Shown here: in pieces, positions 3,093 to 30,291 of the stretch
Layout: each line of letters begins with the position of its first letter
Position numbering within the stretch: position 1 is the stretch's first letter
Made by a program: the position numbers and the translations under genes
From: Pinguiococcus pyrenoidosus
Taxonomy: Eukaryota > Sar > Pinguiophyceae > Pinguiochrysidales > Pinguiochrysidaceae
DNA length: 30,427 nucleotides
Reading direction: 5' to 3'
Assembly (NCBI GenBank): GCA_019677205.1
Contig: JAAMXY010000313.1
Coordinates: 1 to 30,427, forward strand
Notes under the pieces: model-generated
Seen by the model: only the letters and a program-made list of their open reading frames with translations
The model's database searches: none
What the model was told of the DNA's origin: nothing

Positions 3093-3186
3093 CGATATCC
3101 GACAGGGAGGACGGCAGTGCTGAAAGCTCTCCGGAAGCCGTGTCCCTCCTTGGCCAGCCGTTGCCGCGCGAGTGGTTTGCTCCCCC

Positions 3187-9312: not shown

Positions 9313-12300
9313 TCAGGCCTCTTGCTCTTGCTTTGAAGCTGCTGGAGGTTCGGATTTCTCTGGTGGAGCACTTGTCTCAGCTTCTCCCTGAACCGCCAGC
9401 ATTGAGCGCAGCGTCTTCACGGCTGGCGACTCCAAGCTTTGCTTGTTCTCTGGAATACTCAACGCCGGCAGCCAGTCGACCTCCCTGCAGGCCAGCTGCA
9501 GCAAGGCGAAGCCTTTCTCGACCGCCTTTTCGTCGAAGCTAAGCCCTTCTAGGCTCAGGCTGCCTTCCTTGTCTTCGGGAACGAAAGTCAGGACCACCAT
9601 CTCTCGAGCCTTCGACCATCTGCCCACCAAGATGGCTCCTCGTATGGCAGGCTCCTCGGCGTCGCAAGCTTGCGTCTCCTCGGGCGCGTCCGGTACGCGC
9701 AAGACCGCCGCCGTGCCGCCCCGAAGGACAACTTCCTCGGAGAAGCGCTGGACGTCCGAGGCTGCGCGGCCACGGAGGGGCCAAAGCACGACGGAGCCGG
9801 ATGGCCCCCCAGGCACAGAGGGGGGCGCGCCTTTCAAGCTGAGAAGCTGCATGTACGCGGAGAAGATGCCGTTGTGTCGCAGTATCCTGTCTTTGAGGCC
9901 GTCTTTGCCTCCCGCCTCCGCGATGGCGACGGGCAAGGCCGACTCGCTGGCGATCTTCACCACGCTCTCGCCGAATGAATCTGTTGGTTGCAGCTGCGAG
10001 CCGAGGTACTTCTGAACGTGCGTCGCGAGAAAGTCGTCCAGGCACTTATCCACGGCACTCTTCACCAGCAGCCGAGGCATTACCCGCGGAGAGAAGAAGA
10101 TCACGGCTTGCTTGCAGAGGAAGGCCACTTCGTCCTCCGGCGCCACCGACGATGCACTGCGATTGAAGATGTCGAGGTCCAGCAGCAGTCGGATGTGCTC
10201 CCTCGAAAGAACGTCTGCGACCCTCCCTCCACCCCCAACCTCGTTCAGCGCCCGTCTGAGTAGGAAGCAGATTTGCAGAAGAGAGGTCAAGGCCTTGCTC
10301 TCCTCCACCTCGGCTTGAAGAAGTCGCACGGCCCAGGGATGCGCCAAGAGATGAGCTGCAAATCTGTTGGCGTGGAAAAGCACATACACTCGCGCCAGGC
10401 TCATCGCCGCCTTGCTTACTTGTTCAGCATTTGAGCGATCCTCTGGCGGAGCTGTGCTTCTGGTGAAGACCGAGTCTCCATCAGTCTGGTCAGGAGACGC
10501 TTCGGAGGGATCAGTGCGGATGGACCTTGGTTCCGGTGACCTGCTGGCATCCTGCCGATCGGATCGTGGACTCGGCGACGTCTCCCGTCTGATGAGCCGC
10601 TGGACCGAAGGTCCTCGAGACGTTGAGGGTGGCGCACGTACAGGTGGCCCGAACTGCTTCAGCAGCCCTTCGTAGGGCGAAAACATCCCCCTGTCGGCGT
10701 GAGAGAACCCCGCCATTCTGTGGCGCAATGGCTGTACTTCTCCGGCGCTAGTCGCAGGGCGGACGCGTCGAGATCTGCTGCGTAGAGGAGCTGAATCCCT
10801 CGATGCCTTTCGCATGCACAGCCGGCGAGTTGGCCCGATGCAGCCATAGTCAGCTACCCACGGCTGTTCTCCTTCCTCGTCGGCGCCAGGAACGGTACGC
10901 GGTGGCTCGCAGATGTAGCTGGGAACCTCAGTATCCGAGCGAGATGGACAAGTCCGCGGTCTCGGGCGAACTCGCCTTTCGCGATTGTACTCGGCATGTA
11001 CTCGGCGTTGACTTGGTGGCCGCACGAGCTCTCCGGAGTCGCCCTCCGCTGGAGAGCGACTCCGGACGCTGCCGTCTCGTTCTCTGTGTCCCAATTCGTC
11101 CTCGTCCTCCAGAGGGAAGTACCTGTCATATGATCGACTGCTAAGTGAAGCCGCTTGTCGTGAAGCCGGCGACAGCGAGCGCTCCAGTTCCCGAAGATGA
11201 GGGGAGAGCCTCCGGACGGTCTCCTCTGCAACTTGAACGGCGAGACTGTGATATCTCCCTCGTGCTCTTAGTGCCTCCTGCTTGTCCGGAAGACGTGCAC
11301 CATTGGTCTCTCTGGAGACATGTGCGTCGTTTCGTCGATGCCTTTGGGACCCAGGGTGGCGAACGCTGCTGTCTCTATGGCCGGTGGGATCTCTCATGTT
11401 GTGTATGGGCACTCGATCGCCCTGCGAAGGATCTGACCCGCCACCAACCTGCGGGTGACGTCTGCCTTCAGCGTCGCGCTCGCGGCTCGGGCATCGAGCC
11501 CTATGAGCATGACTGCTGGCATTGGTACGGAGCGACTTCACGTATCGAAGCCTGTCATAGGCGTTGGGCTCGTCCTCCACCCTCCTAGAATCCGTCCTCG
11601 AATACCCATCCCAGTCCCCGGCCATGGCGCGCCTCGTGGACCGCGGGTGCCGGGAACGATCAGCTGTCGACACCTGCAAGTCCATCATCTCGCCGGTTCG
11701 TTCCGAGGCGTCGCGAGATGCGCCTCTGCGCTCCTTCCCGTTCACCATCTCTCTCGCTCGCTTGCGGGCGAGCGCTTTGCGACGGGCGACATCATGTTTG
11801 TCTCTGGCTCGCTCTTTCATTTTCATAGCGAATACAGCCTTCTCCTCCTGGCTTACAAACGCCTGGTCATGTAGCTGTGGATGCCGCTGGCCGGTCTCCT
11901 GGCTCCGGCAGTGTTGGGACGCCATAGCTCCCACGTGGTCTGCACCCTTCCCCACGGCGCTACTGGCCTCGAGCAAGTCACTCTCCGTCAATTCAGCGAG
12001 CAGGAGGAGCCCGCTGTCCTGTGGGTCGCTTGCGCTGTCTTCGTTGTTAATCCGGATCAGCTGCTGATCAATGGACGCGTCGTGGGGAGCGCTTTGTTTG
12101 GTTTGGAGCCGCTGTCTTGACACTTTCCGAGCCAGCGCTCTCCGCGGGTCCATGGGTCGGCCATCCGCTTCAGGTCTTCGCTTGTTACTCCTGATGCTCT
12201 GAAAGGCCTCTTGACTTGGTTGCCCACCGACGGTAGAATCGTCGTCGCGCTCCTCGGCCTCAAACGCCTCGTCCTCGCGCTGGGCGTCTTCTTGCTGACT

Positions 12301-15300
12301 TCCGGCCCTCCTCTCCAGGAGCCTCTGTCTCGCCATACGTCGCGCAAGTGCTCGTCTCGGGTCCCTAGTTTCTCCCCCTTCCTCCTTGTGTTGGTGGTCC
12401 TGGCGTAATTGGATGTTGCTATCATCAGCGCCCTCGTGCTCTGCTTCGAGCTGTTCTGCGGCAAGCCTTTTCCTTAGCCGCTCCCGCGCGAGCTTCCGAG
12501 CCAGTGCTCGTCGGGAGGCCAGGGACCGGCTGGCGGCTAGAAGGGCTCCGTTGCCTGTGTCTCCATCCGCTTGTGCCATGTAACGAGATGCCTGGTCAAC
12601 AGCACCGAGCATCTCGACACTGTTTGCGGTGTCCTCCGCGTAGCCATCCTGCTCCGCCTGTGCTAGTCCGGAACGTCCCGCCGCCTGGCGCTGCAATAGT
12701 CTCTGTCGTGCCAACTTCCGCGCCAGGGCCTTGCGTGGGTCCGTGGCGCGTTGCCCCGGTCCAGGTTCTGGCCTGATGGGTTCCTCCGCATCATGAATAA
12801 GAGGACTCGGCTGCCGACTTGTCGCAAGAATGACGGCACTCTCGGGGGATTCGTCTCTTCGGTCACGCTCCAGAAACTCTTCGGGGGGAGGGTGCCTGGC
12901 TGCCCTTCTCTCGATCAGTTTCTGTCGTGCTAGCCGCCGAGCCAGTGCTCGGCGAGGATCTCTTGAAGGCTTGGCAGTTTCCTGGGCACTTTCATCTTTA
13001 TGAGGAAGGCCCTGGCTCGAATCAACGAAGCCGCGGTCATCGGACTCTACTTCGTATGAGCTTCCCAGGTTTTTCGCCGCCTGCTTCGCCCGGAGCCTTT
13101 CTCGGGCAAGTTTTCGAGCCAGTGCGCGACGTGTCGTGAGGGACTGGCTTTTATGAACAGTCGCCTCACTGCTGCTACCGCCGCTCACGTTCTCGACGGC
13201 CAGATCCTGTGCTTCTTCTGCTTCTTCTGCAGCTTCTTCTTCTCCTTCGTCTTCGGGAGGGTCGGACGTGGAATTCCCGTTGGCTAGGTCTTCTCGCTCC
13301 ATAGCAGGTATTTCTGCAGGGCCTGCTGCCCGCTGATGTTGAAGCTTTTGGCGAGCAAGATTTCTGGCCAGCATTCTTTGTGGATCCAGAAGGCAGCGAG
13401 GGGAGGAGGCCCCGGCATTCTCAGACTCTTGTCGATCAGGAGCAGCGGCGTCCTTTGTGAAATGACCTTCGCGTGGTTCTTGCCGAGCCTTCTCCTGGAG
13501 CCGCTGCCTTGCAAGCTTACGAGCAAGCACTCGCCGCGGGTCCGTGGCGGCGACTCTGTGTTCAGGACTGCCCTCAGCACCCAGAGCGTGGGGACCGTGG
13601 CCTTGGACCTGCGGCCGACTGACGCCAGCGTCGGGACGATGCGCTAGCGCTCGTCGAGGATTCATCGAAGGGCCGTTGCCTCTTCGTTCATCACCGTCAT
13701 CTTCCTGCTGAACCTCGTGACTCGGCTCTTCGTCGCTGTCGTCTGCATCTTCCTTCCCGGACGAGATGTGGATCTGTCTTGCGGCTTGCCTTTTTCTGAG
13801 CCGCTCCAGCGCAAGCCTGCGAGCTAGTGCTCGGCGAGCAGCCATTGACTGGGGCCCAAGCGCAACCCCTGAGCTACGATCGCGCTGGTCTCCGTCTTCC
13901 ATCTCATGACTTGCCTGCTCACCGGCTCCAGGCATCTCCGCACTGCCCACTGTGTCGTCTGCGCACCCCTCTCGCTCAGGTGTCGGTCCTTCTAGCCGCT
14001 CCGCTGCCTGCCGCTCCAGATACCGCTGTCGTGCCAGCTTTCGTGCCAGAATTTTACGTGGATCCACGGGACGGGCTGCTGGCGCTCTCGTCGTCGTCCC
14101 CTTTGATCGAGTGTCGTTGCGCACATCCATGCCACCTTCCGTGTCGTCGGCATCCCCGTCAGCCATGCTGTCGGATTCGCCGTCGTCTTCGCTGGTGTAT
14201 GTTGACGCGGCTGTTGGCCCAATTGAGCCCCCCTTGGCTCTCAGTCGCTGAAGCGCGAGCTTTCGAGCGAGCAAGTGCCGGGCATTCACGTCGCGCCTGC
14301 GTTTTGGCGCATCGTCCTCGCCGATGCTTTCGCCGGTTCCTCGACCTTCACTGCTCCCTGTGTAGCTCTCGTCCTCTTCGGACGCCCGTTGTAGCTGCAC
14401 CCTGGCTTGTTTCTCCCTGAGCCGCTGTTGCGCAAGGCGCCGAGCTAGCAGGCGACGAGGACTCGTTCCGGGTGGAACTTGGGCTCTTGCATCCACGGCA
14501 TCTTTGGAGCTGCCGTGAAAGCCCGTCTGCGCCCCGCTCTCCACGGAGTCCTCGTGGTGGTCCAAGTCGCTGGAACCCTGCGGACTGCCGGTTGGATTGA
14601 AGTCGCTTGAACTTCCCTCCCCCTCGGCCTGTCCTGCAGCTTGTCGCTCGCGAAGCCGCTGCTGAGCGAGCTTTCGAGCCAGACAACGTCGGGGATCGAT
14701 CTGGCGACTACCCGGGGCGCGCCTTGAGCGTTCATTGGCCGTGCTTGCAGCGTCAAGGTTTCCTGGCCGTCGCCTTTGCCCGGCGGCCTCTCTCTGCTTG
14801 AGCCTCTTCTTGGCAAGCACACGGGCCAGCGCTCGACGCGGGTCCATGCCACGCCCACTCACGGAGGGTCCCGCCGTCAAGTGTCCTTTCCTGCTTCTCG
14901 AGACCAGCGCGCTGTCACCAGTCTCATCGCCATCGCCGGCATCTTCGTGCGACTGGTGGGCGTCGTCGTCACCGTGGTCTTGGTTGTCGTCGTCGGCGTC
15001 GTCGCTGTGGCGATGGATGCCACCTTGCTCGCTCTCGTCATCGTGTTCGTCATCCTTCTTAAGATCGTGGTGGCTCTCTCGCTGCCCTGTCTTCGCGCCA
15101 TATTGAGGCATTGGTTCTCCGCTGCCCCCGCGCTCTCCCTCTGGCATTTCGAGAACCGCACTGGCTTGCGCTTCCGAAGCGCGCAGAGTTGGCTTTGGAT
15201 CTCGGGCGCTGGCGGCATGTGCTGGTCCTGCTCTGGAAGTTGCGGGGACGTTGTCTTCTGATCTTGCCGCGGGGTCCTGGCCGTCCTGGCTCGGGTATTG

Positions 15301-17853
15301 GGTGGCCGCATCTGTGAGATCTATTGCCTGGACGGCTTCGCTGGGCGTCAATGAGCCACCAACATGAGTGGCGCTTCGGAGAGTCGTTTCGAGGGCATCG
15401 GCGTCCAGCGCGTCGTGGAAAACGTCGCTTTCGGCATCGGTCTGGCTGCCCTGCGCCGATTCGGCACCTCGGCAAGCATCTAGGCAATTCCAACTCGGCG
15501 TCGACCTGGGCTTGCTTGATGTTGCGCGCCCATCATGCTCAGCCTTGCTGTCATCTTCGTCAGCATTCTCGCGTGGCATTGCTTGCACCGCTGCGGACCT
15601 CCCATCTATGCACGGCGATCCAGTTGGGTCCCTCGTCCCATCGCACCGCTGACGGTGGTTTTCGTTTCCCTTCAAGAAGCTGTCTTCGACATCTGGCATT
15701 TCTGCGAGCGCTCGCGAACTCGCTTGCTCGTTTGCGACTGCGACGGGAAACAGCGCTGAGCGCAGACGCTCAAGCTGCGTCCAGCTGAAGTGGCCCTTGT
15801 TGGCCTCCACTGCGCAAACGACTGTCTCTGCGGCATCGGGTGCTCCCGAGCTCTCTTGCCCTGGCGATCGGCTCCTGGGACCAAGCGTCTCGCCAACAGC
15901 ATCGTTGCCCACGTGAATGTTTACGCTGAAGTTGCATCCAGACATCATCCGCCCTTCTCCCCACGGTGCAGTCTGCTGCTCGTGCGTTGTATCTGCACTA
16001 AACACCACGGGCTTGGAAGGGTCTCTCACCACCTGATACGCCTTGGCGGCAGGCTGGTCACGTTGCACTCCTCCAAGCGAGTCGAAGCTTTGTCGAGCTC
16101 TGCCGGAAGCGCTGGGATTCTTAGCATCTTCCATCGCAGCCCTACCAGGATTGAATTTCTCCTCTCTCTCGGGCTGGGAGACTCCTCCGGCGATCGTCGA
16201 AGCAGTTGCAGCTACGTCTGGGCAAGTCGAAGACCTCAAAACCAGTCCTCCAGCACCAGCTGTCGGGGTCGTCGCAGGACGTAGAGATGAGATCTTGACA
16301 ACTGGCTGTGCGGAAGTCGCCGACCAGGATCCTGCAGGACGCTCACCTGGCGCCGGCGATGACTTCGCTTGATCTTGATTTTGGTCCGAGGTCGCTGAGG
16401 ATGATGTTCTTTCCGAGAAAGGCTCCGCAGAACCCGCTCGACCTGGGTCATCTTTGTGCGACATGGACGTGCTGGCCACCGATCGCATCGGCGTCGCAAA
16501 TGCCGCGCCTGACTTCGCGAGGCCAGCATTTCCCGAGGTAGATCCTACTGCGGTTGGCGTCGCGCCAGAAGAACGGAAGCACGAAAAGGAACTCGCAAAG
16601 GCGGAGCTGTTGGACACCGACGACGGGGTTGTTGGCGTTGGCTGTACCGGCATGCCTGGCAGGGACGCCGCACGCCCCGACGAAATGCTCTTCAGGAATG
16701 GAGCAGCCACCTCCTTCGACGAGCTTGTCGTCCCTGGCGGCGAGGTAGGATACGTCGGCATCGACGCATGACCTATCGACGAAGAAGGACCTGTCGCCAC
16801 GCCTGGTGAGCCGTTTATCGAACCCGACTGGCTTGGCCAGCTGTGACCTGCTGAAGACGATGGCTGCGACGAAGGTATCGGCATGCTCATCGACGGCGCA
16901 TACGTCGTCGTGTTCAAGGTGTCTGCTGCCGACACCGAAGCTGGGGTCGCAGCTGGTTGTGTCGGCCACGAAGCCCCTGACAAGGTCGCCGGTCCGGTGG
17001 TCGATCCCGGCCAAGACATCGACGTTGGCGTCATCGACGCTGATGCGGACGGAGCAGCGGAAGCATGTGGCCCGGAGAACGGTCCCTGGCCACGTGAAGG
17101 TCCCGTCGATGGCATGTCGGTGCTGTGACTGAACGCTCCAGGGCCCCGTAAAGCCTGCGTCGGAGTAGGCTGCGGCGTCGGAGCCGTGACAAAGCTGCCT
17201 CCCTGAGCGGGTCCTTGAGTGCCGCTTGGGAACCCTTCAGGTCTCAGCGGAGACGATGGCATGGTCCAACGACGACCAGAGGACTGAGCCACACTGGGCC
17301 CCGACGCCGGGAACATCCACGGGTAGCTTGGTACGTCGCCGCTAGAAGCCTGATGGCTCTGGCTCGTCGGCGGGTTCGCCATCCACGATGGTGCCCATCC
17401 CGGCTCTGTAGTACTCGGCGATGGGGTTAACGTGCCAGCCTGCCCCTGGGGCTCGCGCTGGAACGTGTCGGGAGCAAAGCGCACCCTCCGCCCTTCTTTC
17501 CCTGGCGGCTGTCCTGGCGCCAGTGGGGTCCAACGGGGCGGTAGTGATGTCACTCGGGACCGTTTGTTAGACGGGAAGGACATGAAAGTCCATCTCGGCG
17601 ACAGGGAACCGCTTTCCGGCGACCCCGTCCGTGCCGCGTCGAACTCGGGAATCGATGGTCTTTCCATCACTCCCGGAGACGCCACGGTTCCATTCATCCT
17701 CGACGCGGCGGAGTTTGAGTCTCTCTTCAGAGTATCCCTAAGGCGTTTTCCCAACCCTCGGACGGTGCTGGAAAACGAGCACTTTGGCTCGGGTTGCTGA
17801 TGCGTCCACACATAAACCTGATTTGGATGGGGGTCACGGAAGCCTGCTTGCAT
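9313..17853 (-). CDS. Giant low-complexity protein with about 16 basic 'LARKLARQRL' helical repeats
   Basis: One open frame of 2846 residues runs from the ATG at 17853 to a stop at 9313. I do not recognise the family. Region 1 (residues 1-650) is Pro/Ser/Thr/Gly-rich and disordered, with an RVxF-type motif at 123-126 (RRVRFAPDT context). Region 2 (about 650-1000) is acidic, ending in a His/Asp-rich tract. Region 3 (about 1002-2040) holds about 16 copies of a motif, consensus DPRRALARKLARQRLxxRQAA, spaced 35-100 residues apart by Asp/Glu-rich linkers. Region 4 (2040-2480) is Arg/Ser-rich (RSRSPAE, SRSRRVRP). Region 5 (2480-2846) is the only globular part, predominantly helical, beginning AAMSLARVYVLFHANRF; no family recognised. 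Possible roles are scaffold, RNA or nucleic-acid binding, or PP1 targeting; all are inference. An open frame of 8.5 kb makes the coding call secure. The 5' end could include a small intron (GTTTATG...TTCCAG near 17768-17817). Confidence 0.85.
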   Translation of the reverse strand: MQAGFRDPHPNQVYVWTHQQPEPKCSFSSTVRGLGKRLRDTLKRDSNSAASRMNGTVASPGVMERPSIPEFDAARTGSPESGSLSPRWTFMSFPSNKRSRVTSLPPRWTPLAPGQPPGKEGRRVRFAPDTFQREPQGQAGTLTPSPSTTEPGWAPSWMANPPTSQSHQASSGDVPSYPWMFPASGPSVAQSSGRRWTMPSSPLRPEGFPSGTQGPAQGGSFVTAPTPQPTPTQALRGPGAFSHSTDMPSTGPSRGQGPFSGPHASAAPSASASMTPTSMSWPGSTTGPATLSGASWPTQPAATPASVSAADTLNTTTYAPSMSMPIPSSQPSSSAGHSWPSQSGSINGSPGVATGPSSSIGHASMPTYPTSPPGTTSSSKEVAAPFLKSISSGRAASLPGMPVQPTPTTPSSVSNSSAFASSFSCFRSSGATPTAVGSTSGNAGLAKSGAAFATPMRSVASTSMSHKDDPGRAGSAEPFSERTSSSATSDQNQDQAKSSPAPGERPAGSWSATSAQPVVKISSLRPATTPTAGAGGLVLRSSTCPDVAATASTIAGGVSQPEREEKFNPGRAAMEDAKNPSASGRARQSFDSLGGVQRDQPAAKAYQVVRDPSKPVVFSADTTHEQQTAPWGEGRMMSGCNFSVNIHVGNDAVGETLGPRSRSPGQESSGAPDAAETVVCAVEANKGHFSWTQLERLRSALFPVAVANEQASSRALAEMPDVEDSFLKGNENHRQRCDGTRDPTGSPCIDGRSAAVQAMPRENADEDDSKAEHDGRATSSKPRSTPSWNCLDACRGAESAQGSQTDAESDVFHDALDADALETTLRSATHVGGSLTPSEAVQAIDLTDAATQYPSQDGQDPAARSEDNVPATSRAGPAHAASARDPKPTLRASEAQASAVLEMPEGERGGSGEPMPQYGAKTGQRESHHDLKKDDEHDDESEQGGIHRHSDDADDDNQDHGDDDAHQSHEDAGDGDETGDSALVSRSRKGHLTAGPSVSGRGMDPRRALARVLAKKRLKQREAAGQRRRPGNLDAASTANERSRRAPGSRQIDPRRCLARKLAQQRLRERQAAGQAEGEGSSSDFNPTGSPQGSSDLDHHEDSVESGAQTGFHGSSKDAVDARAQVPPGTSPRRLLARRLAQQRLREKQARVQLQRASEEDESYTGSSEGRGTGESIGEDDAPKRRRDVNARHLLARKLALQRLRAKGGSIGPTAASTYTSEDDGESDSMADGDADDTEGGMDVRNDTRSKGTTTRAPAARPVDPRKILARKLARQRYLERQAAERLEGPTPEREGCADDTVGSAEMPGAGEQASHEMEDGDQRDRSSGVALGPQSMAARRALARRLALERLRKRQAARQIHISSGKEDADDSDEEPSHEVQQEDDGDERRGNGPSMNPRRALAHRPDAGVSRPQVQGHGPHALGAEGSPEHRVAATDPRRVLARKLARQRLQEKARQEPREGHFTKDAAAPDRQESENAGASSPRCLLDPQRMLARNLARQKLQHQRAAGPAEIPAMEREDLANGNSTSDPPEDEGEEEAAEEAEEAQDLAVENVSGGSSSEATVHKSQSLTTRRALARKLARERLRAKQAAKNLGSSYEVESDDRGFVDSSQGLPHKDESAQETAKPSRDPRRALARRLARQKLIERRAARHPPPEEFLERDRRDESPESAVILATSRQPSPLIHDAEEPIRPEPGPGQRATDPRKALARKLARQRLLQRQAAGRSGLAQAEQDGYAEDTANSVEMLGAVDQASRYMAQADGDTGNGALLAASRSLASRRALARKLARERLRKRLAAEQLEAEHEGADDSNIQLRQDHQHKEEGGETRDPRRALARRMARQRLLERRAGSQQEDAQREDEAFEAEERDDDSTVGGQPSQEAFQSIRSNKRRPEADGRPMDPRRALARKVSRQRLQTKQSAPHDASIDQQLIRINNEDSASDPQDSGLLLLAELTESDLLEASSAVGKGADHVGAMASQHCRSQETGQRHPQLHDQAFVSQEEKAVFAMKMKERARDKHDVARRKALARKRAREMVNGKERRGASRDASERTGEMMDLQVSTADRSRHPRSTRRAMAGDWDGYSRTDSRRVEDEPNAYDRLRYVKSLRTNASSHAHRARCPSRERDAEGRRHPQVGGGSDPSQGDRVPIHNMRDPTGHRDSSVRHPGSQRHRRNDAHVSRETNGARLPDKQEALRARGRYHSLAVQVAEETVRRLSPHLRELERSLSPASRQAASLSSRSYDRYFPLEDEDELGHRERDGSVRSRSPAEGDSGELVRPPSQRRVHAEYNRERRVRPRPRTCPSRSDTEVPSYICEPPRTVPGADEEGEQPWVADYGCIGPTRRLCMRKASRDSAPLRSRSRRVRPATSAGEVQPLRHRMAGFSHADRGMFSPYEGLLKQFGPPVRAPPSTSRGPSVQRLIRRETSPSPRSDRQDASRSPEPRSIRTDPSEASPDQTDGDSVFTRSTAPPEDRSNAEQVSKAAMSLARVYVLFHANRFAAHLLAHPWAVRLLQAEVEESKALTSLLQICFLLRRALNEVGGGGRVADVLSREHIRLLLDLDIFNRSASSVAPEDEVAFLCKQAVIFFSPRVMPRLLVKSAVDKCLDDFLATHVQKYLGSQLQPTDSFGESVVKIASESALPVAIAEAGGKDGLKDRILRHNGIFSAYMQLLSLKGAPPSVPGGPSGSVVLWPLRGRAASDVQRFSEEVVLRGGTAAVLRVPDAPEETQACDAEEPAIRGAILVGRWSKAREMVVLTFVPEDKEGSLSLEGLSFDEKAVEKGFALLQLACREVDWLPALSIPENKQSLESPAVKTLRSMLAVQGEAETSAPPEKSEPPAASKQEQEA
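11728..14847 (-). repeat. Array of about 16 degenerate basic-helix repeats within the giant ORF
   Basis: The core is (D/S/N)PRRxLARKLAxxRLxxKQAA. Conserved positions are Arg-Arg, the LAR/LAx heptad-like pattern and the RL pair; in a helix the Leu/Ala would fall on one face and Arg/Lys on the other. Two subtypes recur: 'DPRRALARKLARQRLLERQAA' and '(S/T)xRRALARKLARERLRKRQAA' with RERL. Copies lie near 14847, 14690, 14460, 14275, 14065, 13840, 13665 (truncated), 13545, 13390, 13130, 12960, 12746, 12530, 12366, 12155 and 11797 (degenerate). DNA identity between copies is low, so this is an old protein-level array and not a young satellite. Confidence 0.85.
14912..15060 (-). other. Asp/Glu/His-rich acidic tract in the giant protein
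   Basis: About 50 residues immediately before the first basic repeat are made up almost wholly of Asp, Glu and His with Gln/Ser (for example HSDDADDDNQDHGDDDAHQ). On the DNA level it is a GTC/ATC/GTG-rich stretch on the plus strand. It supports intrinsic disorder and could bind metal ions or pair electrostatically with the basic repeats; neither is shown by sequence alone. Confidence 0.7.
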
Positions 17854-19710
17854 TCCGCCGCATCCCTGTGGCTAGCTCCAGCTTTGGGAAGCTTCGTCCG
17901 TCTTCATCTGAACGCCGCCTTCGAACCAGACTTGCCTTCTCTCACAAACCCTGAGGGAATTTCACGTTGCTCCCGTTGCTTCACTTAATTTCACTTCCTT
18001 CCGCTTCCCTTCACTCCGCTTCGCTTCGCTTCTGCAGGTGGATGCGTGCAAGTCCGGCTCGCATAAGCAATCCCCCGAAGGCGAAGGAGAGAAGTCTCGG
18101 GACTCGAGAAACAGGAAGAGCAGAACTTGACAGGGACCGGGAACACCGCGGATTCTCTTGGAGACACAAAGACTCGGATGGCGTCGAGCGCGTTTCATCC
18201 TTGTCTTTCGGCGGTGGTGCCGTCTCTTGGCCTTGACTCCGAACGGTCCGGAGTCTCTTCCCCGCTCCCCGGGGCTTTCGTATTGTGCAACAAGGACATC
18301 CTTAGTATCTCATGGCATAGGAACATCCGTGCGACCCGTTGTTCGGATGATGTACACCAGACCTGGTCCAAGGACGGTGCAACGGTATGGCCTTCTATGG
18401 CCGTCCGTGGAGATGAACGACAACGGATGGCCGAGCGCACTCCGCTGACTGGCTGACTCTTCCGATGAAGATGACGTCACTCCTTCCAAACCAGCACGCA
18501 ATTGGAGCGTCCCACGGAAGGAGATCCCGAAACCAATGGTGCGTGGAGAGGATCCGAAAGCTCCGCAGATTTGCTGTGCTACGCGATATCTATGCAGTCC
18601 AGATCCAACGCTCGACAAGGGCTCTGGAGAGTCTTGCTTGGTTGCTGCCTTTGGCCGCTGCTTCGCGGCCTGTATCTAGCAAGAGTTTCTGCCGTCAGGT
18701 GGTGTTTGCCTCTTCCTTTGTCGGGCCGCTGGACCGTTCCCGCGCAGAAGGAGCCATGGAGGTGCCTTCCGGCGCAGGACGCGACGAAGCAGTGACCAAG
18801 CCTCCTCTCCGGGCTACCGTTGCGCTGCTGGAACAAGTCGACCAGCAGCAGCTTCAGCGGCTTGCGGGGCAGATCGCCAGGTCGGTTCATGGCTGCTCTT
18901 CTGCTGCAAAAGTGGTCCTTCGGAGTTGCAACGCCTAGGGAGAAGCTGATCCTCGGATGCAGGCCGCTGCGCATTCCACGGCCCGAGGCCACCGAGGATA
19001 GAAGTATCGCGACCATCGTCCAGGGCGATGCCTCGGAGCCGATATCACAGGTCGACTTTAGAGAAGTTGACATCATCCAGCACCCAAAGGTCCGAAGACC
19101 GCTTCATCGTCCTCGTGCACCCGTCACCGAGCCGAGAAGCCACATCCTGCACTCCCCAAGGAAGAGGTAGAGAGCTCCATCCAGACTGGTGGCTACTTCC
19201 CGCTAGGCTCAACCCCTTGAGACGCAGGAGACGCTCGTTCGTGCTCGTCCATATCGTGGATCTGCAAGGCTGCTCTGGCCTCGTGGAGCACGAGGGAGAG
19301 CATGTAGCAGCAAAGCCCTTGGGTACGGCGCTCGTCAGACTTGCTCTCGCGAGTCTCTACCACTGTTTCGATGACCCGATTATTTTTGTCTGCTACGAAG
19401 GACGCCAGGCGTGGCGGCCTCGACGAATTGGACAAGCACTCCGCGCATTCGCCTTCTCCCTGCCAGCATTTTCGTCGCTTGTTCGCGGTCGACTGCGCGT
19501 CAAGATAGCCGCAAATGCGGTACAAGTTCAGGTACCCAGCCATCCTTGCTGTGGTGGAGAAGTCTCTTCTTCGATCGCTCACTGCCGCGTCTCAAGGGGG
19601 ATGCGTCAGCGGTGTCCAGCCTAGGAGCAACGGACATCGGAGGTTTCGGGGCCAGTCTGCAGGAGATCGCGCCTTCCTGGCTTGAAGCGCCCAAAGCCAA
19701 CCACAACGCG
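17854..19710. other. Divergent region between the two giant genes; possible 5' exons of the plus-strand gene
   Basis: This stretch should hold the promoters of both giants. A pyrimidine-rich TTCACTT/CTTCGCTT repeat-like tract at about 17972-18035 ends in CTGCAG. A plus-strand ATG at 18756 starts a protein-like segment (LLEQVDQQQLQRLAGQIAR) that ends at a GT near 18881 in phase 2. It can join a frame at about 18943-19168 (ATEDRSIATIVQGDASEPIS) by an acceptor ending CCTAG. The plus-strand frame that becomes the STAND giant is open from 19375 but has no ATG until 19711. A 129-codon minus-strand ORF at 19193-19582 overlaps this region. None of these is secure. Confidence 0.35.
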
Positions 19711-22700
19711 ATGGAGATGCAACCGCAGGACAACGTCGCGAGCATCGACGCTACGCCCAAAGACGCAGACGTGAGAAGGGAGAGGAGTAGCCACGCCGGG
19801 AAAAAAGGGGGGGAAAGAAGGCGCACGAAGGACATCCTCATTCCCATCCCGGTCGCACCAGCGTCCCTTTCTATCTGCGCAACATCGATTGGCGGCGACC
19901 ATTTCGAAGCGTCCGAGGCCAGCTCGCCAACCCAGCTGGCTACGACGATCGCCCTGGAGCAGGCGCTCGAGGGAGAACACTTCATCCCGGACTTCTTCCA
20001 CAACTACTTGCGTCTCTTGGAGGCCAAGTACCGACGCGGAGAGCTTCGTCGAGAGGTCGAGGACGCGTCAACATTGGCTAGGAAAGGACCGCAGATCTCT
20101 TTATGGAACTACGAGTTCCTGGATCTCCCTGCAGATCGCATCGTGCATAGTCTTGGCGGCGAAAGTATGGAGAAAGTGCGGTCTCGGCAGCCAGCGACCA
20201 AGCAGCAGCGCCCGCACCCGAGGCCCGCTGGCCCAGGGAGCGATGAATCCGGGGGAAACGCAGACGACACGGGTCTCACCGTCGTGCCTCGGCGAGAGGT
20301 CTCTGGTAGCAGCACTGAGGAGAGTCTTGCGCCGGCATACTTTGCGGACGAGGAGAAGTACTCTGCGCTCCTGCAACTGCCAAAGTCCGTTCAAGAGCTC
20401 GTCAGTCCGAGGGGAAGCGTCTATCTGGACAATCCGGAGAATGAGTTCGACGTTCTGGAGCTAAGCAACCAGCGCTTCACCCTACGCAGCGTCCATCCCG
20501 CCGGGCCTGGAGTTGAAGAGCTTGATCTGGACCAACTCCTCCGACGAGCTGTGCCATGGTGGCTCCAAGCAGGCCAGAGAGTCGCCTTTGCCTCGGGCCC
20601 GTCGGTGGAGAAGCAGGGCGTCATATCACGAGTGACCCGGTCCGAGGTTAGAGTGCGCATGGATGCCGCGAAAAACGAAGCGCACTCTTCTGAGGCACAA
20701 GCCGCTCGTGAGAAGCGCAACACGGGAGACTCGGCGGCTGAAGTCCGTCGGTTGTCTTCGATGGCAGCCAGAACGACCTTGAGACGCGTGCACCACGAGA
20801 CGCTGTGGGGCGTTGCTCCCGCTGTGAACGACATACCCGTCGGGATCGCGGTCCTACTGCCTCTGCAGCGGGAAGGCAAGGTAGTTCAAAGCGGAGATCC
20901 TCTGGTGGTGGAGACGCTGGACGGCGCTTGTGTTCGCATTTCTGCCGAGCAGCTGCTGGGCGTCGGGCCACTTGAGCCAGCCGCTGGCGACACCATACCC
21001 GATGAATCGGAGTCGGGCCCACGCCGCTGTTTGTCCGAGGAGGACGCTCTGGGCTTACCATGCAGCGATGAAACCGCGGCTCTCTCGGCAAGCCTGACGG
21101 ACCGTGTCTCTGCTGCCGATGATCTTGAAAGAGAGGCTCGCTCCGAAGGTGATGCACGGAAGAGCGCTGCGTGCATCACAGCACATGCAGAAGAGAAGGC
21201 CAAAGAAGACACGACGGCTTCTGCTCTGGCTAGCCATCATGGCGCGAGATCTTCTCTGGAGAACGACGGAGGCGCCGCCAGGGATGGAGTCGGCCCGTCT
21301 TTGCCAGACGCCGGGCGCCTATACAGGGAATCCGCAAGCGCGGGGGCAAGCGCCGCTCTCTCCCGACCATCTACCGGCTCGACCGACGTGAGTGCTGCCG
21401 AGGATCGCGACGTCGCCGTGAGTGTCGAAGAGCAAGGGCAGGCGGTGCATCTCCGATGGAAGGCCAAGAAAGGGGGCGACGCCACCTACCAAGTACAGGC
21501 CAAGTTCCATCGCCGCATTGGCACCGCCAGCCTTCAGGATTGCTTTGTCGTCAAGGAGCCGACCCTGGTCATTCGTGGGTACCCTGTGGGAATGCGGGTG
21601 GCTTTCGCCGTCACCTTCGTGTCGGAGGGCGCGGCAGGCACGCCGATGCTGTCGCAACCGGTAGACGTGGACGGCAATTTCCCCAGCCTCGAAAGCCCCG
21701 ATGAACTTGCGGCGCTTCTTCGGCTTTTCGGAATTGATGTAACCCAATGGCCAGACTCCGCATACCGCGTCAGCGAGCTCTTTCACATGACTCAAGACAA
21801 TGGCGTTACTCTAGCATGTCGAAGCGGGCAGATTTGCGCGTACGTTGAGCTGGTGAAGGCTTTCGTCACCAGGCAACAGCTCCAACCAGACGACTTTCTG
21901 GTCCACACATACCGGCAGCAGCAAGGGGTCGTCACGCCAGTCTGGGCAATTCCAAGGCGGGAACTCCGCCCTGGCCAAGACGCCGCACACATCGCCCAGC
22001 AACTCCTCACCGAAGTGTTTGAAGTCGATCCAGCCAGCGTTCTGGTCTACGGAACGCTATGCGAGACGGAGCGCCTTCCGACGATCGACGACGGATATGT
22101 CGGGATCGTTGGGGAACTGCGGGTCTGGCAAGCCTCCGCGGTCATTCGTGACTTTGAAGGCTTGCCGAAGGTAGTGCTCGGCAAGCTTGACGGCACTCGG
22201 TCCTTTACTGAGCTGTGGGAGTTCATGTCCAGGGAGACATACACGCGGCTTGCCCTTGATTGGAGCCACCGCCTTGCGACCCAGGGGCGATCTTTCGAAC
22301 CGCCTTCGTGGTCAGCATCTCCGGGGGGCTTCACCCAGCCACTCTGCGAGGCTTCGGTCGAGCAGGGAGCACCGGGATTACTTGCACGCGAAGCATACGG
22401 TCCGCCGCCAGTCGAAACGTTGGGCTCCACTGCTGCCTTCGGCGACAGAGCCAGCGACGCTGATGAGCTGGAGCAGATACTTGTCGGACTCTTTGGCGAA
22501 ACAAAAATCAGCCAGTACTCCATCGTCATGGGGCGTCTCTCTGAGCTTGCTCTGTTGAAAGTGAGCCCCGCTACCGACGTCGCAGAAGACGCGGAGGCCA
22601 AGGTGGTCGCCGTTTACCGCAAGGACATACACGAAGCACACCAGATCCAGGTGGAGTCAGCACCCTTAGTCCTATCCGACCGCGTCGTCGAGCTCGCCTC

Positions 22701-25700
22701 GGAGCGGGTCGAGCTTGGCAAGCTCGTTGCCGCGGAGATTCCGCCGACAAGGTGGGCGAGCGACGAGTCCTTTCAGATGAATCTTGGCTCACTGCAGCAG
22801 CGAATGTCTGCCGTATTCAACTCGGAGAAGCAGTGTAAAGGTTTTCTATCGCCTAGTGACGGCAACTTACGGGCCGGCCAAAGCGTATTTGACGTCTCGC
22901 TCGCAATCTACGGAGAGATGCTCCCCCGGCTCCTTGCGAGCCAGAAGGCGGACGCGGAGCGAATAAACATCGTGAGCGAGTATCGCCTTCGAAAGCTCGT
23001 GACAAGATGGCAGGAATGCGTCTCAGGCGCCGACGATCTTTCCTTCGTGAAGCTTCTGGAGCAGAAACTGACAAGGCCGGGCGCCTCGAAAGCATGGCTT
23101 AGGAAAGCGGGTCCTGCGCTAGACCTTGCCGCTGATCGTGTGCTGGTGGAGGGCGAGGGGAGCTTCTCCCTGCTCGACATTGGCAGTTTTCGCACAAGCG
23201 CACATGCGCTAAGATCTTACACGCACTTTTCTGTCTTCACGGTGCTCTTGGTCGTCAAGTTCCCTCTGTCTATCAGCGATGTCCAGGCGCTCGGATGCGA
23301 CCAGATCTGCCGCCACCTGCAGATCTCAGAGGAAGAGGCCGTCCAGCTTGCAATCCAGATTCACCAGAATCCGCAGCCTGACAAAGTGGATGATGCGATC
23401 CGGAGCCTTCATCTTGACGAAGAGGCAAGCGAGCGCTGTCGAACGCTCATACAATCGGACGAAGCGGTGGAACACTTCGAAGACGACTTCTTGCGCATCT
23501 TCATGAACGCGCACCTCGTGAGAGTGACGCAAGCAGCGAGTGCTTTGAAGCCTCGGAGCCCGAGATTGACGGTGCTCGAGAAGCTTCTGCGTCAGATCTC
23601 GCAGTTTGTCATCTTCTACGTGGACGCAGAATCAGACGACGCGGCCGAGTACAGCCTCTCAGTTCTACACTTTCTCCTTCGCGTAGCGCAGGACGCAGCA
23701 GATGACAAAAGAAAGGGAAGCTTCGTTCGAAAAGCGGCTAGCATCTTCGCGCGCAAGCTTCTGCTCGACATCTCGACTCCGTTCTCGTCACGCGTACTTT
23801 CGACAAGTCAGCGTCGGTTCGGGAGAGGAGCTGCATTTGGCGAGTCGAGGCTTCGTCTCTTCGACTCACAGATCGCCAAGGAGCGTCTGCTGCTGAAGAT
23901 GAAGTTACTCACTTCCAGTCGCACGACCGATATCGGCTTCGAAAGGGCGCCGCTTGACATCACGTCTCTGGAAATATACGTGAAGGAGATATCTGGCGTA
24001 CGATGGCACAGGGCCTCATCTGCCTATGCGGAAGCCGACCACGATTGCCTCGCGAACAGTCACGTCCTTTTCGCGTCTCGCGATCTCGACGATCAAAGCG
24101 ATCAACGAAGCCTGGGTCTCGCGGAAGCCTTCTCCAAGGCAGCTCGCGCCGACGACCAAGCGCATCTCTACATCTGCGGACCTCCGGGATGCGGCAAGTC
24201 GGTGGTCGTTCAGGACTGCATCTTGAAGCTGCTGAGCTCGAAGAGCGACAACCAAGTGGAGCTCATCCCGTACGTAATGGATCCCTTTGTTCTGCGGTCG
24301 CTGCTGCTAAAGAGGAAAGGGACCTCGGAGAGCTTCGTAGAGGTTGTCAAAGAGCACATTGATCTCTGCGAAGCGGCGCAACCAAGTAGAATGGTTCTGC
24401 TGTCGGAGCTGTTTGCCATGCGCCGCTTGGTACTCGTGGTGGACAAAGTAGACTCGCTCGGGCCGGCGTATCCATCTGCGCTCAAAATGATAGCCTCGCT
24501 AGCCGCGGTGTACCCATTCTTGATCTGCGTCTCGAGGCAGCTGCCAGTAGGGGGGCCGGCGGGGCTTCGGGCGTTTCGCTACTACACGCCGGCCGTGTCC
24601 ACTTCACATGACGTCGCGGCAGTCCTCGACGCCGTAAGTCGCAAGACCGACCTCCATCTGGCCGAGTTGATGTCCATTCGGGAGATGCTGATAACCGTGT
24701 GCCGCGTGAGCAGCCGATTTGGAATCGACCTCTTCGACTATCCCTTGGCCACGGGGTATCTGTGCTCGAGAGCCTCCGTCCAAGTGGCGCGCCAGATGAC
24801 AGGGAATGACCAGGCCGCAGGTGCTTCAGCTGACGATTCGCTGCTAAGCAATGCTGGGAGGTTGTTGAGCAGCTTCATGGAGCTTTGGACAGCGGCCCTC
24901 GCGTGTCGGCAAGTCTCTAGCTACCCAGAGAAGCCAAAGCAAGGAGAAGAACTCACCGAACCAGAATCCGACGAGGAAAGGACGCTGACGTTCGTAAGCG
25001 CGATCGCGGTAGACATGCAGATGCAAAGCTGCTGGCACATGTCTGCGGAGCATTTCGTGGAGAGAGCTAGAGCGAAAGGCGTCGACGTTGGTCTCGTGGC
25101 TCCCGGCCTCTCACTGGAGAAGCCGGTGGCAGGTACGGAGCCCCCGACAATGTTTCACAACGATTGTCACCACGCTTTCGTCGCTACGACGACTGTGGCG
25201 GCAAACAGGGACGACAAGTCGTCGAAGACCAAGGCGAGTCTGGTAGTCCAGTTCACCCATCCGATGCTACAGAAGTACTTTTGTGCCAGAGCGCTGCGGT
25301 ATCAGATTTTGCACCGCATTGCTGGCCGAGACCCTGCGGAACGAGTCCGCGCCTGTGTCATCGTGTTGTCAAGCTTGCCGCAAAATGCGTTCGTCGACCC
25401 TGCTTGGCGAGCGGTCCTGGTCTTCCTGGTGCTGCCGGGTCCAAGCTGGCTCAGCGCACAGGTATGCAATAGCATGCTTCAGCAGGAGACGCCAGACAGA
25501 AGTGCAGTCGTCTTGGGCTTGCAACTCGCCGAGCTAAGTGGCGTCCGCGCCAGCGTGAAGGCGCCGGCAATCAGAGATGTAATGAGCTTTGCAGACCTCC
25601 TGACACACGTCAGCTCTAGCGTGCGACTTCACGCACTCCAGGAGCTTCTGTACAGCAACATCAATGCTCGCTATGTCGTAGAGCTGCTACTGGATGTGTT

Positions 25701-28700
25701 GAGAAACAGGAAGAAGGCGTGGTACTCGCGCGGGGCGGCGCTCTTCGCATTGAGGGAGCTGCGGCTGTTCTTGCAACCCTTCATGGTGCCGCAAGTCATC
25801 AAGGAGAACGAGCTGAGGACCGCCTACACCTCCGTCCTTACGAAGATTGCCTCGTCGAACAAGGAGGACCACGTCGTCAAGTGCGCCGCCTTCGAGCTCG
25901 TCCAGTCCAGTAGCCCCGACGACCAGGAGGGGATCATGGACGCCCTGTGCCAAGTACTGCAGACACAGCCGATCGAGTCGCTCGAAGGCGCCATCCGCAT
26001 CATGAGCACCATGTGTATCCGAAGCATCGGGTTCCTCTCGCTGCTGGTATCCTGTCTGGCGAGTGACGCGCTGAGAGCCAGCGCTAAGGCGGCACTGCTT
26101 CGCTTCACCACTATGCGGTCGTTTGAGGACCGCTCCACATCAGCATCCTCGCCAGCAAGCCACGGACGCAGTCGTCGACGACAGGCAACACGCCGCCAAG
26201 CGGCCCGGCTGCCGGAGGAAGTCGTGGACTGCCTTCTCGCGCTCCTTCGCCCGCGGTGCTCCTTGGAAGTGCGCAAGGCGGCGGCGGAGGTCCTGAGCAA
26301 TTGCCATGCCGGGGAAAGGGTGGTGGCCGCGATCCTTCTAGACATGACCAGAGCGTACCCCAAACTCTCCAAAGAGCTGCCAGAGCCCCAAAGCCCCCGT
26401 GCGTGGAATGCAAGGCCGGCGTTCCAAGAAGAACGCGACGCTGCCCAGGAAGGCAACCCGAAGTGGCTCTTAGCGACAGCCTTAGAGCCCTATGAGCTTG
26501 CTGCTTCCTTGAGATTTCCCAGTGCGGAAATTCTCTTGATGCTATCGGATCGACTTGCTGATGGCACGCCGATCCTACGTCGCGGGCTCCTCCATCTCCT
26601 GAACGTCGGGTCCGACTCGGTCGCGAGGCATGTGCATGGAAAGAACGGCGTCGAAGCTCTCGTTGCATCCGTTCTGCTTTGCCTGGATGATGAGGATCCC
26701 AAGACGTGCGGACTTGCGGCCGAGCTATGCGGCCGCCTGGGCTTTGCATGCTTGGAAGGCGCGGCGGAGTCGCTCTTCCAGCAACTCGTCAGCAACAGGC
26801 AAGCACATGTTCGAGGATTCCTTGCTCGCGCGTTGCTGCTGAACTTCGAGGGAAAGGCTCCCCACCATGCAGCGGCTCTCGCTTGTCTCAACAACATATT
26901 GACGGGCGAGAGAGAAGACGTCTGCCTGGCGATTCTCGACGCCGTCGACGATCTCGTAGATGTGATTGCTGTGAGCAATTTCGACGTCCTGTCGTCTGGC
27001 ATCAAGCGCTGCTTGGACTTGCAGTGCAGCAACGCGCTATGCGCCAAGATGCTTGAGCTCCTCTTGGATCGTTGCTTGCGACCGGAGCTGCTGGGGTACC
27101 GGTACATTTACGGCGCCTGCTGGGGCGTCTTTGTCTACGAAGGCGCCCTCCGGCCTCAGGTGCGGCTCATGGCGGGCAAGTTCCTGATCCAGTGGCACAC
27201 GCTTCAAGGCACTGCTCCGCATGAGATCGTCTACCAGATCAATGCGGATCTTCTCTCTTGTCGAGATCTGTTTCAGAAAGAGACGACCGATGGCTCTGCG
27301 ATCCCCGAGGCGAGCAAGGGAAGGGCTCTCGTTTCACTGCAGCTCGTAGAGCACCTGCCGGTCACGTTCTGGACGAACGAGTTGAGGCCATCGCGAATGC
27401 TCGAGCGTATCGACAAGGCGATGAGCCCCGACGTGCTGGCCAGCGGTCTACGGGCGCTGCGCTGCTGCATCCAGCCCCCCAACGACGCCTCCGTCTTGAA
27501 ATCCACCATCGGGGAGGATAAGCTCATGAGCCTGGCCTCCGAAGTGTTGTCGGGGGAGCTGGACACGAGCTCGGAAGTGAGGGACGCATTCATGGCTCTT
27601 CTCCAGGACATCATCGTCTACTGTCCGCACATCTCCGCCACGGATACCTTGCAAGTCCTGCTTGAGGAGCTTAGCACCTCCGACGACACATTGGCATGGG
27701 CCATCGGTGCATTGAGCTGCGTGGACGACGGCCGAGACGCCATTGCCGACTTCTTGGAGGACGCCCATGATGGTGCGACAACTGCCAAGAAGTGCGTCCT
27801 CGTGCTAAACGCTTGCGCAGACGCTGGCGTGGCCTCCCGACTTACGACTGCGGTGCTGACGATCACGAAAGACCTTCTCATCGACATGGACGTCAAGCAC
27901 GTCGTATCGCCACTGCTGGCACTTCGACATGTCAAGTCGTCGCCAGAACTACTGGAGCAAGTGGCCGACTCGCTGGGTTACCTCCTCGACCGCCTTCCCC
28001 TCTCTTCAAGATTTATCAAGGCACACGTCGGCGTTTGTCGCGTCCTGCGCGGTGTCAGAGTACTGAGCAAGAAGCTGACTTCCATCCTGCTGGGGTACTT
28101 GAAGACTGAGGAGCACAGGGAGCTCTACGTTGCAGCCTGCGATGTGCTGATGGCGAACACAGATGCCGCCCTCAGCGCGCTGCCTCTGCTGGTGGCCGGG
28201 CTAGAAAATCTACGGCTGGAGAAGCCCTGGCGGAGGTACCTCTTGCTCAAGCTGCTGAGCTTCACGGCGAGAGAGGACACGGCGGCGCTCGGCCTCCTTG
28301 AGTTGGCCGAGCACAAGGCCGTGGGACCCTTCGCTGTTCATGGCATTCTTGAGTACGTAAGCTTCAAAAAGGACAGCTGCAGGCCGCTGCTGTGGCGAGC
28401 ACCGAGCGAGTGGCAGTCGCATCTGCAGCGCGTCGCGCAAGAGGCGCCGACGAAGTCCGGCGCGCACTACATTGATCAGCAGATAGCGTACATAGATGTG
28501 GCACCTTCCGAAGCTGATACCGACACAGGCAGCAGCAGCCGGCTTCGTCGCGATCTCCTCCAGGTGCTCCAAGAGGAGTTCGCCGAGAGCATTGCAAGCG
28601 AGGCCGATGAAGGGGAAGTGAGCGGAAAGGCGGTATCTTCCCCTGCCGAACGTCCCCTTCAGGGAGACCAAGATGACCGCGTGGGACGAGGCACGGGCAG

Positions 28701-29786
28701 GAAAGCTGATGCGCACAGAGTGCTCAGCGTGCGAGAGGAGGACATGAATGCCTTTGACACCATAGGGAAGGCGCTCGAGGAGGCAGCGGACGGCGACGAA
28801 ATTTGGATATACCCGAGAAGGGACAGCAGAGGAGGCAGTATACCGTACCGCGAGATGCTGAATATCCAGAAGTGCGTTGCCATCAAGGGAATCGACGTCG
28901 GCGACATGAAGCCATCTCTGGAGTTTCCCAGTAGGGAGACAAATCTGTGGGAGAAGAAGACGATGCCATTGATCAGAGTGTGCGCCCTAGGAGTGTCCCT
29001 TACCAATCTCAACATCGTTGACGCGCGAGAAGAACAAGGCACGGGAGACGAGGGTGGCCTGCCATTCGAGACTCTACCTGGCACTAGCTCAGTCGACGTG
29101 CAGTTCGGGACGCTGGATCTCTACCAGGTATGACAATGGAAAGGTCTACACACTCACACACGACGCGGGAAAAGGAAGGGTCAGGGACTGACGAAGCTGC
29201 GCACACCTTCGCAGGCGAGCATTCGATCGGAGCTCTGTTCCTGCATCCGATCGGGCTTCGCTACCCGCCTCACTCTCCGAGCTGTGACGATTCGGTACAC
29301 CCCCAACACTGGACTGGACATCAGCGGTAGGAGAGGTCCCCTCCAGAGGCTTTTCAAAGCACCTGGATCACGTCTCAAGCTGTCTGCTCTACAACTTCAG
29401 GACGCGGATGCACGGCGAGCATCAAGGACACGCTGCTCCAGCGGTGTGATGGGGAGGCTGTGAGGGTCAGCGGTGGGGCCGTCGTGGATGTCGCGGAGTG
29501 CAAGATTCTCCAGTGCGGGATCGGCATCGATGCTCGGGGGCCCACAACCGAATTGACGCTCACCAACAACGCCTTTCAGCGGCTTCAAGGGCCCGCAATG
29601 AAGCTCGAAGAGCAGGTCTTCCACGAAGATATCAACATGAGTAGCGCTGAGAAGCCAAACTTACCCCTGAGAATCGACTCCCGACTGAATACTGTACGAA
29701 AACCCAAAAGCATTGCCGACACTGCGCAGCGAGCAACACTCCGAAGCAGCAAGCTGTCGGACGCCTTCTTGGAATCGCTCAATTGA
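19711..29786 (+). CDS. Giant NACHT/STAND-type NTPase with FN3-like, HEAT-like and C-terminal beta-helix domains
   Basis: Exons are 19711-29127, 29215-29326 and 29401-29786 (introns 87 and 74 nt, phases 0 and 1), about 3304 residues. Domain order, numbering from the ATG at 19711: SH3-like or charged N-terminal segments; an FN3-like domain (569-653; VHLRWKAK ... YQVQAKF ... AFAVTFVSEG); a degenerate Nudix-like segment (about 710-810; VWAIPRRELRPGQDAAHIAQ); helical regions; a P-loop NTPase with Walker A GPPGCGKS (24178-24201) and Walker B RLVLVVDKVDSLG (near 24424-24462); the NACHT-associated FTHPMLQKYFCARAL motif (near 25251-25297); a HEAT-like helical array (about 1957-2900); and a parallel beta-helix starting ALEEAADGDEIWIYPRR and continuing through both small exons. 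STAND NTPases act as ligand-triggered oligomerising switches, and HEAT arrays usually bind partners. The acidic Glu after the Walker B Asp pair is replaced by Ser. The true start may lie in an upstream exon. The overall function is not known. Confidence 0.87.
29128..29214 (+). other. Intron in the STAND giant gene (first of two)
   Basis: Donor GTATGA follows CTCTACCAG and the acceptor is CCTTCGCAG; it is phase 0 and 87 nt long. Reading through would end the protein at the TGA at 29131-29133. Removing it continues the beta-helix as LDLYQ-ASIRSEL. Confidence 0.75.
29327..29400 (+). other. Intron in the STAND giant gene (second of two)
   Basis: Donor GTAGGA and acceptor CAACTTCAG, 74 nt, phase 1. 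The split codon forms a glycine, giving GLDISG-RGCTASIKD, which is consistent with beta-helix coils on both sides. Confidence 0.75.
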
Positions 29787-29976: not shown

Positions 29977-30291
29977 ATGGCAAACATGGTCAACCAGGAG
30001 GTGACAGAAGCAGAACGCCCAGAGGAAAGCATCATTTTTGAAGGTTTCCCAGAGGAAATGGAAGCATCAAAGACCGAAGCAGCAGAAGCAGAATGCAGGC
30101 GTTTCAAAGCAGAATGCAGGCGTTTCACACCAGAATGCAAGCGTTTCAAAGCAGAATGCAGGCGTTTCACACCAGAGCCCCCTTGCTACGCCAACACACC
30201 CTTGGTGGACGGAACGCCCGCGCCTTCATCTTGGGCAACAGCTGCGCGAATGGCAACCGCCGTCGCCTTGAACGCAGACTCAGCCTTGTGA
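29977..30291 (+). CDS. Short hypothetical ORF carrying a Cys-Arg-Phe repeat
   Basis: A 104-codon ORF starts at 29977 (a second Met lies three codons later) and ends at 30289-30291. Its N-terminal half is Glu-rich ([20 protein letters not shown]). The middle is four near-identical 7-residue units (AECRRFK / AECRRFT / PECKRFK / AECRRFT) encoded by a DNA minisatellite. No domain, signal peptide or membrane segment is visible. It begins 190 bases after the STAND gene's stop. It could be a small gene, an exon of a gene that continues to the right, or a chance ORF in a 3' UTR. Confidence 0.3.
30088..30171 (+). repeat. 21-nt minisatellite, four copies arranged as two 42-nt dimers
   Basis: The units are 30088-30108, 30109-30129, 30130-30150 and 30151-30171, consensus GCAGAATGCAGGCGTTTCA(A/C)A. 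Units 1 and 3 end CAAA and units 2 and 4 end CACA, so the recent duplication step was 42 nt. The two dimers differ at only two bases (first base G/C and one G-to-A in unit 3). The 21-nt period keeps the reading frame. Confidence 0.9.

Follow-up and report, generated by a model that had tools for sequence, protein, structure and literature searches.

A giant, divergent candidate STAND-type switch protein with helical repeats and a beta-helix end in Pinguiococcus pyrenoidosus

In plants, animals, fungi and bacteria, immunity has its basis in switch nucleoside triphosphatases (NTPases) that carry repeat sensors; how far such proteins extend into less-studied eukaryotes has been little mapped. A contig of Pinguiococcus pyrenoidosus (JAAMXY010000313.1, from assembly GCA_019677205.1 of 23.7 Mb in 768 contigs) raises the question of whether one very long gene at positions 19711-29786 of its forward strand encodes such a protein. 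The window analysed here is that entire contig of 30,427 bases. A first-pass annotation had described an FN3-like domain, a NACHT-like P-loop ATPase, about 950 residues of HEAT-like helices and a C-terminal pectin-lyase-like beta-helix, and had seen in their combination a switch NTPase paired with a sensor array. Such a pairing still accounts best for what was observed. Three of the four modules are supported, the NACHT assignment proved borderline by profile, and no statistical test backs the FN3 domain. The best explanation, which we consider probable, is that the protein is a giant intracellular molecular switch of the STAND type; it looks like an outsized and very divergent cousin of the immune-type switch proteins.

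The gene itself, with its roughly 3,300 residues, is well supported. A frame without stop codons runs from 19375 to 29133 (+) over 3,252 codons, with its first in-frame ATG at 19711, and joining the three exons listed in Table 1 gives a protein of 3,304 amino acids with a single stop at its end, over precisely the span that had been annotated. Unspliced, the frame stops at 29131-29133; removal of the two predicted introns, a splice model read from the sequence alone, adds 165 open codons. From 20011 onward, exon 1 shows a steady codon-position pattern of guanine-plus-cytosine content, which is less clear in the preceding block (19411-20010) that lies half before the ATG; additional 5' exons may lie upstream of 19711. 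From N- to C-terminus, the chain consists of about 1,400 residues, a P-loop NTPase (residues ~1470-1960), a helical solenoid and a beta-helix signature.

The STAND assignment of the NTPase is likely, judging from its motifs and profiles. All the motifs quoted in the first-pass annotation are present, and the series of Walker A (residue 1490), Walker B (1573), LICVSR (1604), PLA (1678) and FTHPMLQKYF (1848) has the order and spacing of STAND proteins. When the stretch behind the P-loop was shuffled 200,000 times, the full series never appeared, a figure which overstates the case because the patterns were composed after the sequence had been seen; counted by themselves, Walker B plus an LICVSR-type motif turned up in 96 of 20,000 shuffles and an FxHxxxQ-type motif in 29 of 20,000. 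Searched against Pfam as a 610-residue piece (residues 1421-2030), the region matches AAA_16 (E 2.9e-6, below the cut-off) and AAA_22 (E 3.5e-6, 27.8 bits, just above the cut-off of 27). It also aligns by blastp to the NACHT domain of another frame of the same genome (L016, NACHT E 2.3e-12) with 35.4 bits, where the best of 500 shuffles reached 28.5 (0/500 as good). In 381,662 residues of six-frame translation from the compared loci, which partly overlap, a relaxed form of the third-helical-domain (HETHS) motif was seen solely in copies of the studied gene. In addition, a solenoid signature follows directly behind the NTPase, and the genome holds other STAND proteins. The P-loop motif GPPGCGKS occurs a second time in the genome, in a long frame read by eye as a dynein heavy chain, and therefore proves nothing by itself.

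Several results weigh against this assignment. The NACHT profile (PF05729, cut-off 26.7 bits) reaches E 0.0042 and 17.4 bits with the piece and just 15.4 bits with the full exon-1 protein, a query with which AAA_16 and AAA_22 also fall under their cut-offs, and the gene is not listed among the 16 NACHT matches of a genome-wide scan (E <= 0.1). Both diagnostic motifs deviate from the N-NACHT consensus given in PMC12258605: the Walker B VLVVDKVDS agrees with hhhhD[GAS]hDE at seven of nine positions (K for [GAS], S for E), and FTHPMLQKYFCA agrees with FhHxxhQE[YF]hxA at seven of the nine specified positions (T for a hydrophobic residue, K for E). No blastp alignment was obtained between the NTPase and the NACHT domain of a further own-genome frame, L018, and phmmer, run with the whole protein and with its tail, gave no match at E <= 10 to five own-genome proteins selected for comparison. 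P-loop families outside STAND score alike (PADLOC mad8 3.1e-5, NCBIfam PRK09270 1e-4); the PADLOC profiles gave nothing but P-loop matches, and those of NCBIfam were weak and far under cut-off. An AlphaFold model of residues 1450-1960, computed without relatives, has a mean confidence (pLDDT) of 36.9, too poor to inform on a STAND fold. Because of the sub-threshold score, the absence from the genome-wide list, the missing phmmer and L018 matches, the similar scores of other P-loop families and the uninformative model, we call the domain NACHT-like, borderline by profile, and do not count it among the NACHT members.

Behind the NTPase, about 600 of the 950 claimed HEAT residues are supported, since HEAT_2 matches and a solenoid model together cover residues ~2140-2750. 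HEAT_2 (PF13646) was matched in three stretches, at E 6.7e-5 and 23.5 bits against a cut-off of 27.7. When residues 1930-3084 were searched in ten overlapping pieces, three matched HEAT_2 (residues ~2140-2410), and the six pieces from residue 2350 onward matched no HEAT family. For residues 2150-2750, AlphaFold run on the single sequence gives a solenoid built entirely of helices (mean pLDDT 57.1, highest at ~2460-2750), and the PDB matches of this model are mostly HEAT/ARM proteins; the helical-hairpin solenoid fold expected of HEAT/ARM repeats was thus found over residues ~2140-2750. Internal sequence repeats were also sought in residues 1901-2960, where self-blastp returned the self match alone.

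For the C-terminal end, the pectin-lyase-like helix of the first-pass annotation holds as a right-handed beta-helix by alignment, but with a profile score below threshold. Residues 2977-3204 align through both exon junctions to the beta-helix of an own-genome protein (L027, itself above the Beta_helix cut-off) with 24% identity and 32.7 bits, the best of 500 shuffles reaching 28.1 (0/500 as good). The profile Beta_helix (PF13229) matches residues 3158-3242 of the spliced tail at E 0.0012 and 18.9 bits (cut-off 25.9); the tail is not among the five Beta_helix matches of the genome scan, and phmmer did not detect its relation to L027. The latter (L027:1949-8293, +) is a helicase frame of Snf2 type that also carries HSA and a weak F-box-like match; its right-handed beta-helix sits at the C-terminal end. 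Two further frames of the genome that are related to each other, L028:2167-5166 (+) and L029:3066-7013 (-), carry G8, DOMON and a CEMIP-type beta-helix.

The N-terminal part is far less legible. Among residues 1-1420 no Pfam family rises above noise, and four of six cuts (residues 1-400, 660-880 and parts of 881-1430) were empty at E <= 10; residues 401-559 were covered only by the whole-exon-1 Pfam search. NCBIfam gave one unrelated weak match within residues 881-1420, and Pfam no sesB-like or other listed N-terminal domain. The proposed FN3-like domain is a resemblance by eye, since residues 565-660 match no FN3 model in Pfam (E <= 10; sole listing Tissue_fac, E 0.13-0.22) and nothing in a PDB sequence search at E <= 10. 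A resemblance of residues ~680-860 to a Nudix domain was dropped, two cuts having matched no Pfam family and the PDB search no structure at E <= 10.

How might such a protein work? By analogy with the NOD-like receptor (NLR) proteins, the P-loop NTPase would rest closed with its nucleotide bound, and the helical solenoid and the terminal beta-helix would act as the sensor which keeps it closed. Once a ligand or partner bound the solenoid or the beta-helix, the NTPase would open; this opening would permit nucleotide exchange and self-assembly, and the assembly would present the N-terminal part of about 1,400 residues as the output. The sequence shows the gene, the order of its modules, the P-loop motifs, the solenoid-type repeats and the beta-helix signature, whereas the STAND fold, the switching, the oligomerisation, the sensing and the output are all conditional here; a sensor switch is our best reading and an immune role is a guess, as the signal may be foreign or internal. 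That the gene encodes a eukaryotic STAND receptor of a new kind, in which a chain of 3,300 residues combines a divergent NACHT-like switch with a two-part sensor of HEAT repeats and beta-helix and with an N-terminal output part matching no family tried, seems to us doubtful.

Somewhat short of an even chance, in our estimate, is that the protein serves ordinary cell biology as a scaffolding or regulatory ATPase (ciliary, nuclear or transport-related, for example), whose NTPase plays a structural or conformational part as in nephrocystin-3-like proteins and which senses no foreign signal. The NTPase piece has a weak Pfam match to NPHP3_N (E 0.0041), and the contig also carries an ODAD1-type gene, although contig neighbours in eukaryotes tell little about function. 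The beta-helix of the Snf2-type L027 also suits this explanation, as the module is therefore used in this genome in a chromatin-remodeller-type protein, and so does the finding of a single gene copy instead of an expanded family, over the parts covered by the own-genome search. Conversely, the HETHS-like motif and the position of the solenoid are like those of sensor STAND proteins.

It is unlikely that the NTPase is a non-STAND ATPase of AAA or AAA+ type fused to repeats. Such a reading would agree with the higher scores of AAA_16 and AAA_22 compared to NACHT and with yeast ORC1 as the best individually matched PDB stretch (E 0.09-0.5). However, AAA_16 outscores NACHT in L018 as well, where NACHT exceeds its cut-off, and the LICVSR and FxHxxxQ motifs suit STAND better, a comparison that draws in part on PMC12258605. 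Very improbable, finally, is a reading in which the protein ends at 29133, with both introns misread or with the beta-helix tail belonging to a gene of its own: the unspliced stop and the purely sequence-derived splice model would allow it, but both introns are GT..AG, their removal opens the 165 further codons, the L027 alignment covers both junctions and the Beta_helix match crosses the second.

Table 1. Features of the gene, with positions in the window and the basis of each reading
Feature	Position	Strand	Residues	Basis
Exon 1	19711..29127	+	1-3139	Stop-free frame from first in-frame ATG
Intron 1 (predicted)	29128..29214	+		87 bases, GT..AG; frame stays open when joined; sequence reading only
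Exon 2	29215..29326	+		Spliced reading; L027 beta-helix alignment passes through
Intron 2 (predicted)	29327..29400	+		74 bases, GT..AG
Exon 3	29401..29786	+		Ends at stop codon; Beta_helix match (3158-3242) crosses exon 2/3 junction
FN3-like stretch	21403..21690	+	565-660	Visual resemblance only
P-loop NTPase core	24118..24780	+	1470-1690	AAA_16, AAA_22 and NACHT profiles; blastp to L016 NACHT
Walker A GPPGCGKS	24178..24201	+	1490-1497	Read in translation
Walker B LVLVVDKVD	24427..24453	+	1573-1581	Motif reading
Third-helical-domain (winged-helix) motif FTHPMLQKYFCA	25252..25287	+	1848-1859	Consensus from PMC12258605
Claimed HEAT/ARM solenoid	25558..28590	+	1950-2960	Support over ~2140-2750
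Right-handed beta-helix, C-terminal	28711..29606	+	~3001-3245	Profile and alignment, across three exons

Relatives of the protein were sought widely. A large protein collection gave none (2,601, 7,997 and 7,995 candidates scored) in searches which scored just those candidates sharing exact words within a length range, are insensitive to remote kin and barely covered the eukaryotic collections. Viral contigs yielded no relative and phage DNA no match; a pattern scan of prokaryotic genomes returned nine stretches, none of them a relative. Among plasmids, tblastn found three records at E <= 10, the best being an NB-ARC protein of Deinococcus gobiensis (E 0.3), too weak for use. In the own genome, residues 1301-2100, 660-880 and 1921-3139 had no further copy (2, 1 and 1 candidates scored), with the segments 1-659 and 881-1300 and the last two exons outside that search. 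With one such gene found and no relatives, to speak of an undescribed immune-like system claims more than the data show.

The same genome contains other STAND proteins of interest. Four of its six NB-ARC matches are over cut-off: two of these frames carry TPR, one TPR and leucine-rich repeats (LRR), and one neither of the two. The frame with all three (L039:1358-5800, -) has a plant-like NB-ARC/LRR pairing. L018:2992-6366 (-) joins CHAT (8.1e-12), NACHT (7.5e-9) and SH2 (9.9e-6), each above cut-off, so that a STAND switch shares one protein with a caspase-like protease fold and a domain that binds phosphotyrosine; this frame is possibly more striking than the gene studied here. Ten frames were scanned with Pfam (three from the 16 NACHT matches, four from the six NB-ARC, three from the five Beta_helix), and within these frames, exons outside them not included, no HEAT family or Beta_helix was listed alongside a STAND NTPase (E limit 0.01 for the NACHT frames, 0.001 for the others).

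On the contig, the ODAD1-type (outer dynein arm docking) coiled-coil gene lies at 3187-4941 (-; ODAD1_CC 1e-15), which together with dynein heavy chain frames read by eye suggests cilia; a PEX1-type frame is found elsewhere in the genome. The introns and the ODAD1-, PEX1- and Snf2-type frames are those of a eukaryote. A frame of 2,846 codons at 9313-17853 (-) has no Pfam match, is by eye partly rich in Ser, Pro and Gln, and repeats a basic, helix-like unit (type RRALARKLARQRLxxRQAA) 13 times, as counted with a self-written pattern. At 30080-30180 a short tandem repeat with a unit of about 18 bases is visible by eye.

If the STAND reading is true, the gene would join such a switch both to HEAT repeats and to a beta-helix; the latter fold we did not find reported with a STAND switch in the open-access literature. 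Since the genome also holds the CHAT-NACHT-SH2 and NB-ARC-TPR(-LRR) frames, the organism would then be useful for studying early STAND diversity.

How new is the arrangement? No named family with NACHT, HEAT and a beta-helix (or pectin lyase), and no NOD-like receptor with a right-handed beta-helix, was found in the open-access literature, outside of which most subscription journals lie. The NACHT-HEAT half is not new, however, because it is published for fungi, where N-NACHT pairs solely with HEAT, and for Rickettsiales (PMC12258605); in fungal STAND proteins, HEAT repeats were formerly counted under TPR, according to PMC4986451. Like these NLR proteins, which combine an NTPase bearing a NAIP-like FxHxxhQ motif with following HEAT repeats (PMC12258605), the studied protein has its solenoid behind the switch, but it differs from them in its two off-consensus motifs, in having no sesB-like or other listed N-terminal match and no detectable sequence homology in the protein collection, in its far greater length and in its beta-helix end. 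With the Nephrocystin-3-type and NB-ARC/TPR STAND proteins it shares a P-loop switch NTPase, helical repeats and, weakly, NPHP3_N, but it has HEAT instead of TPR, and again the beta-helix. Its own-genome counterpart L027 likewise ends a large protein with an alignable beta-helix, but has no STAND NTPase or HEAT match at E <= 0.001. What is new compared to the published NACHT-HEAT proteins is the N-terminus of about 1,400 residues without a family match, the size and the beta-helix end.
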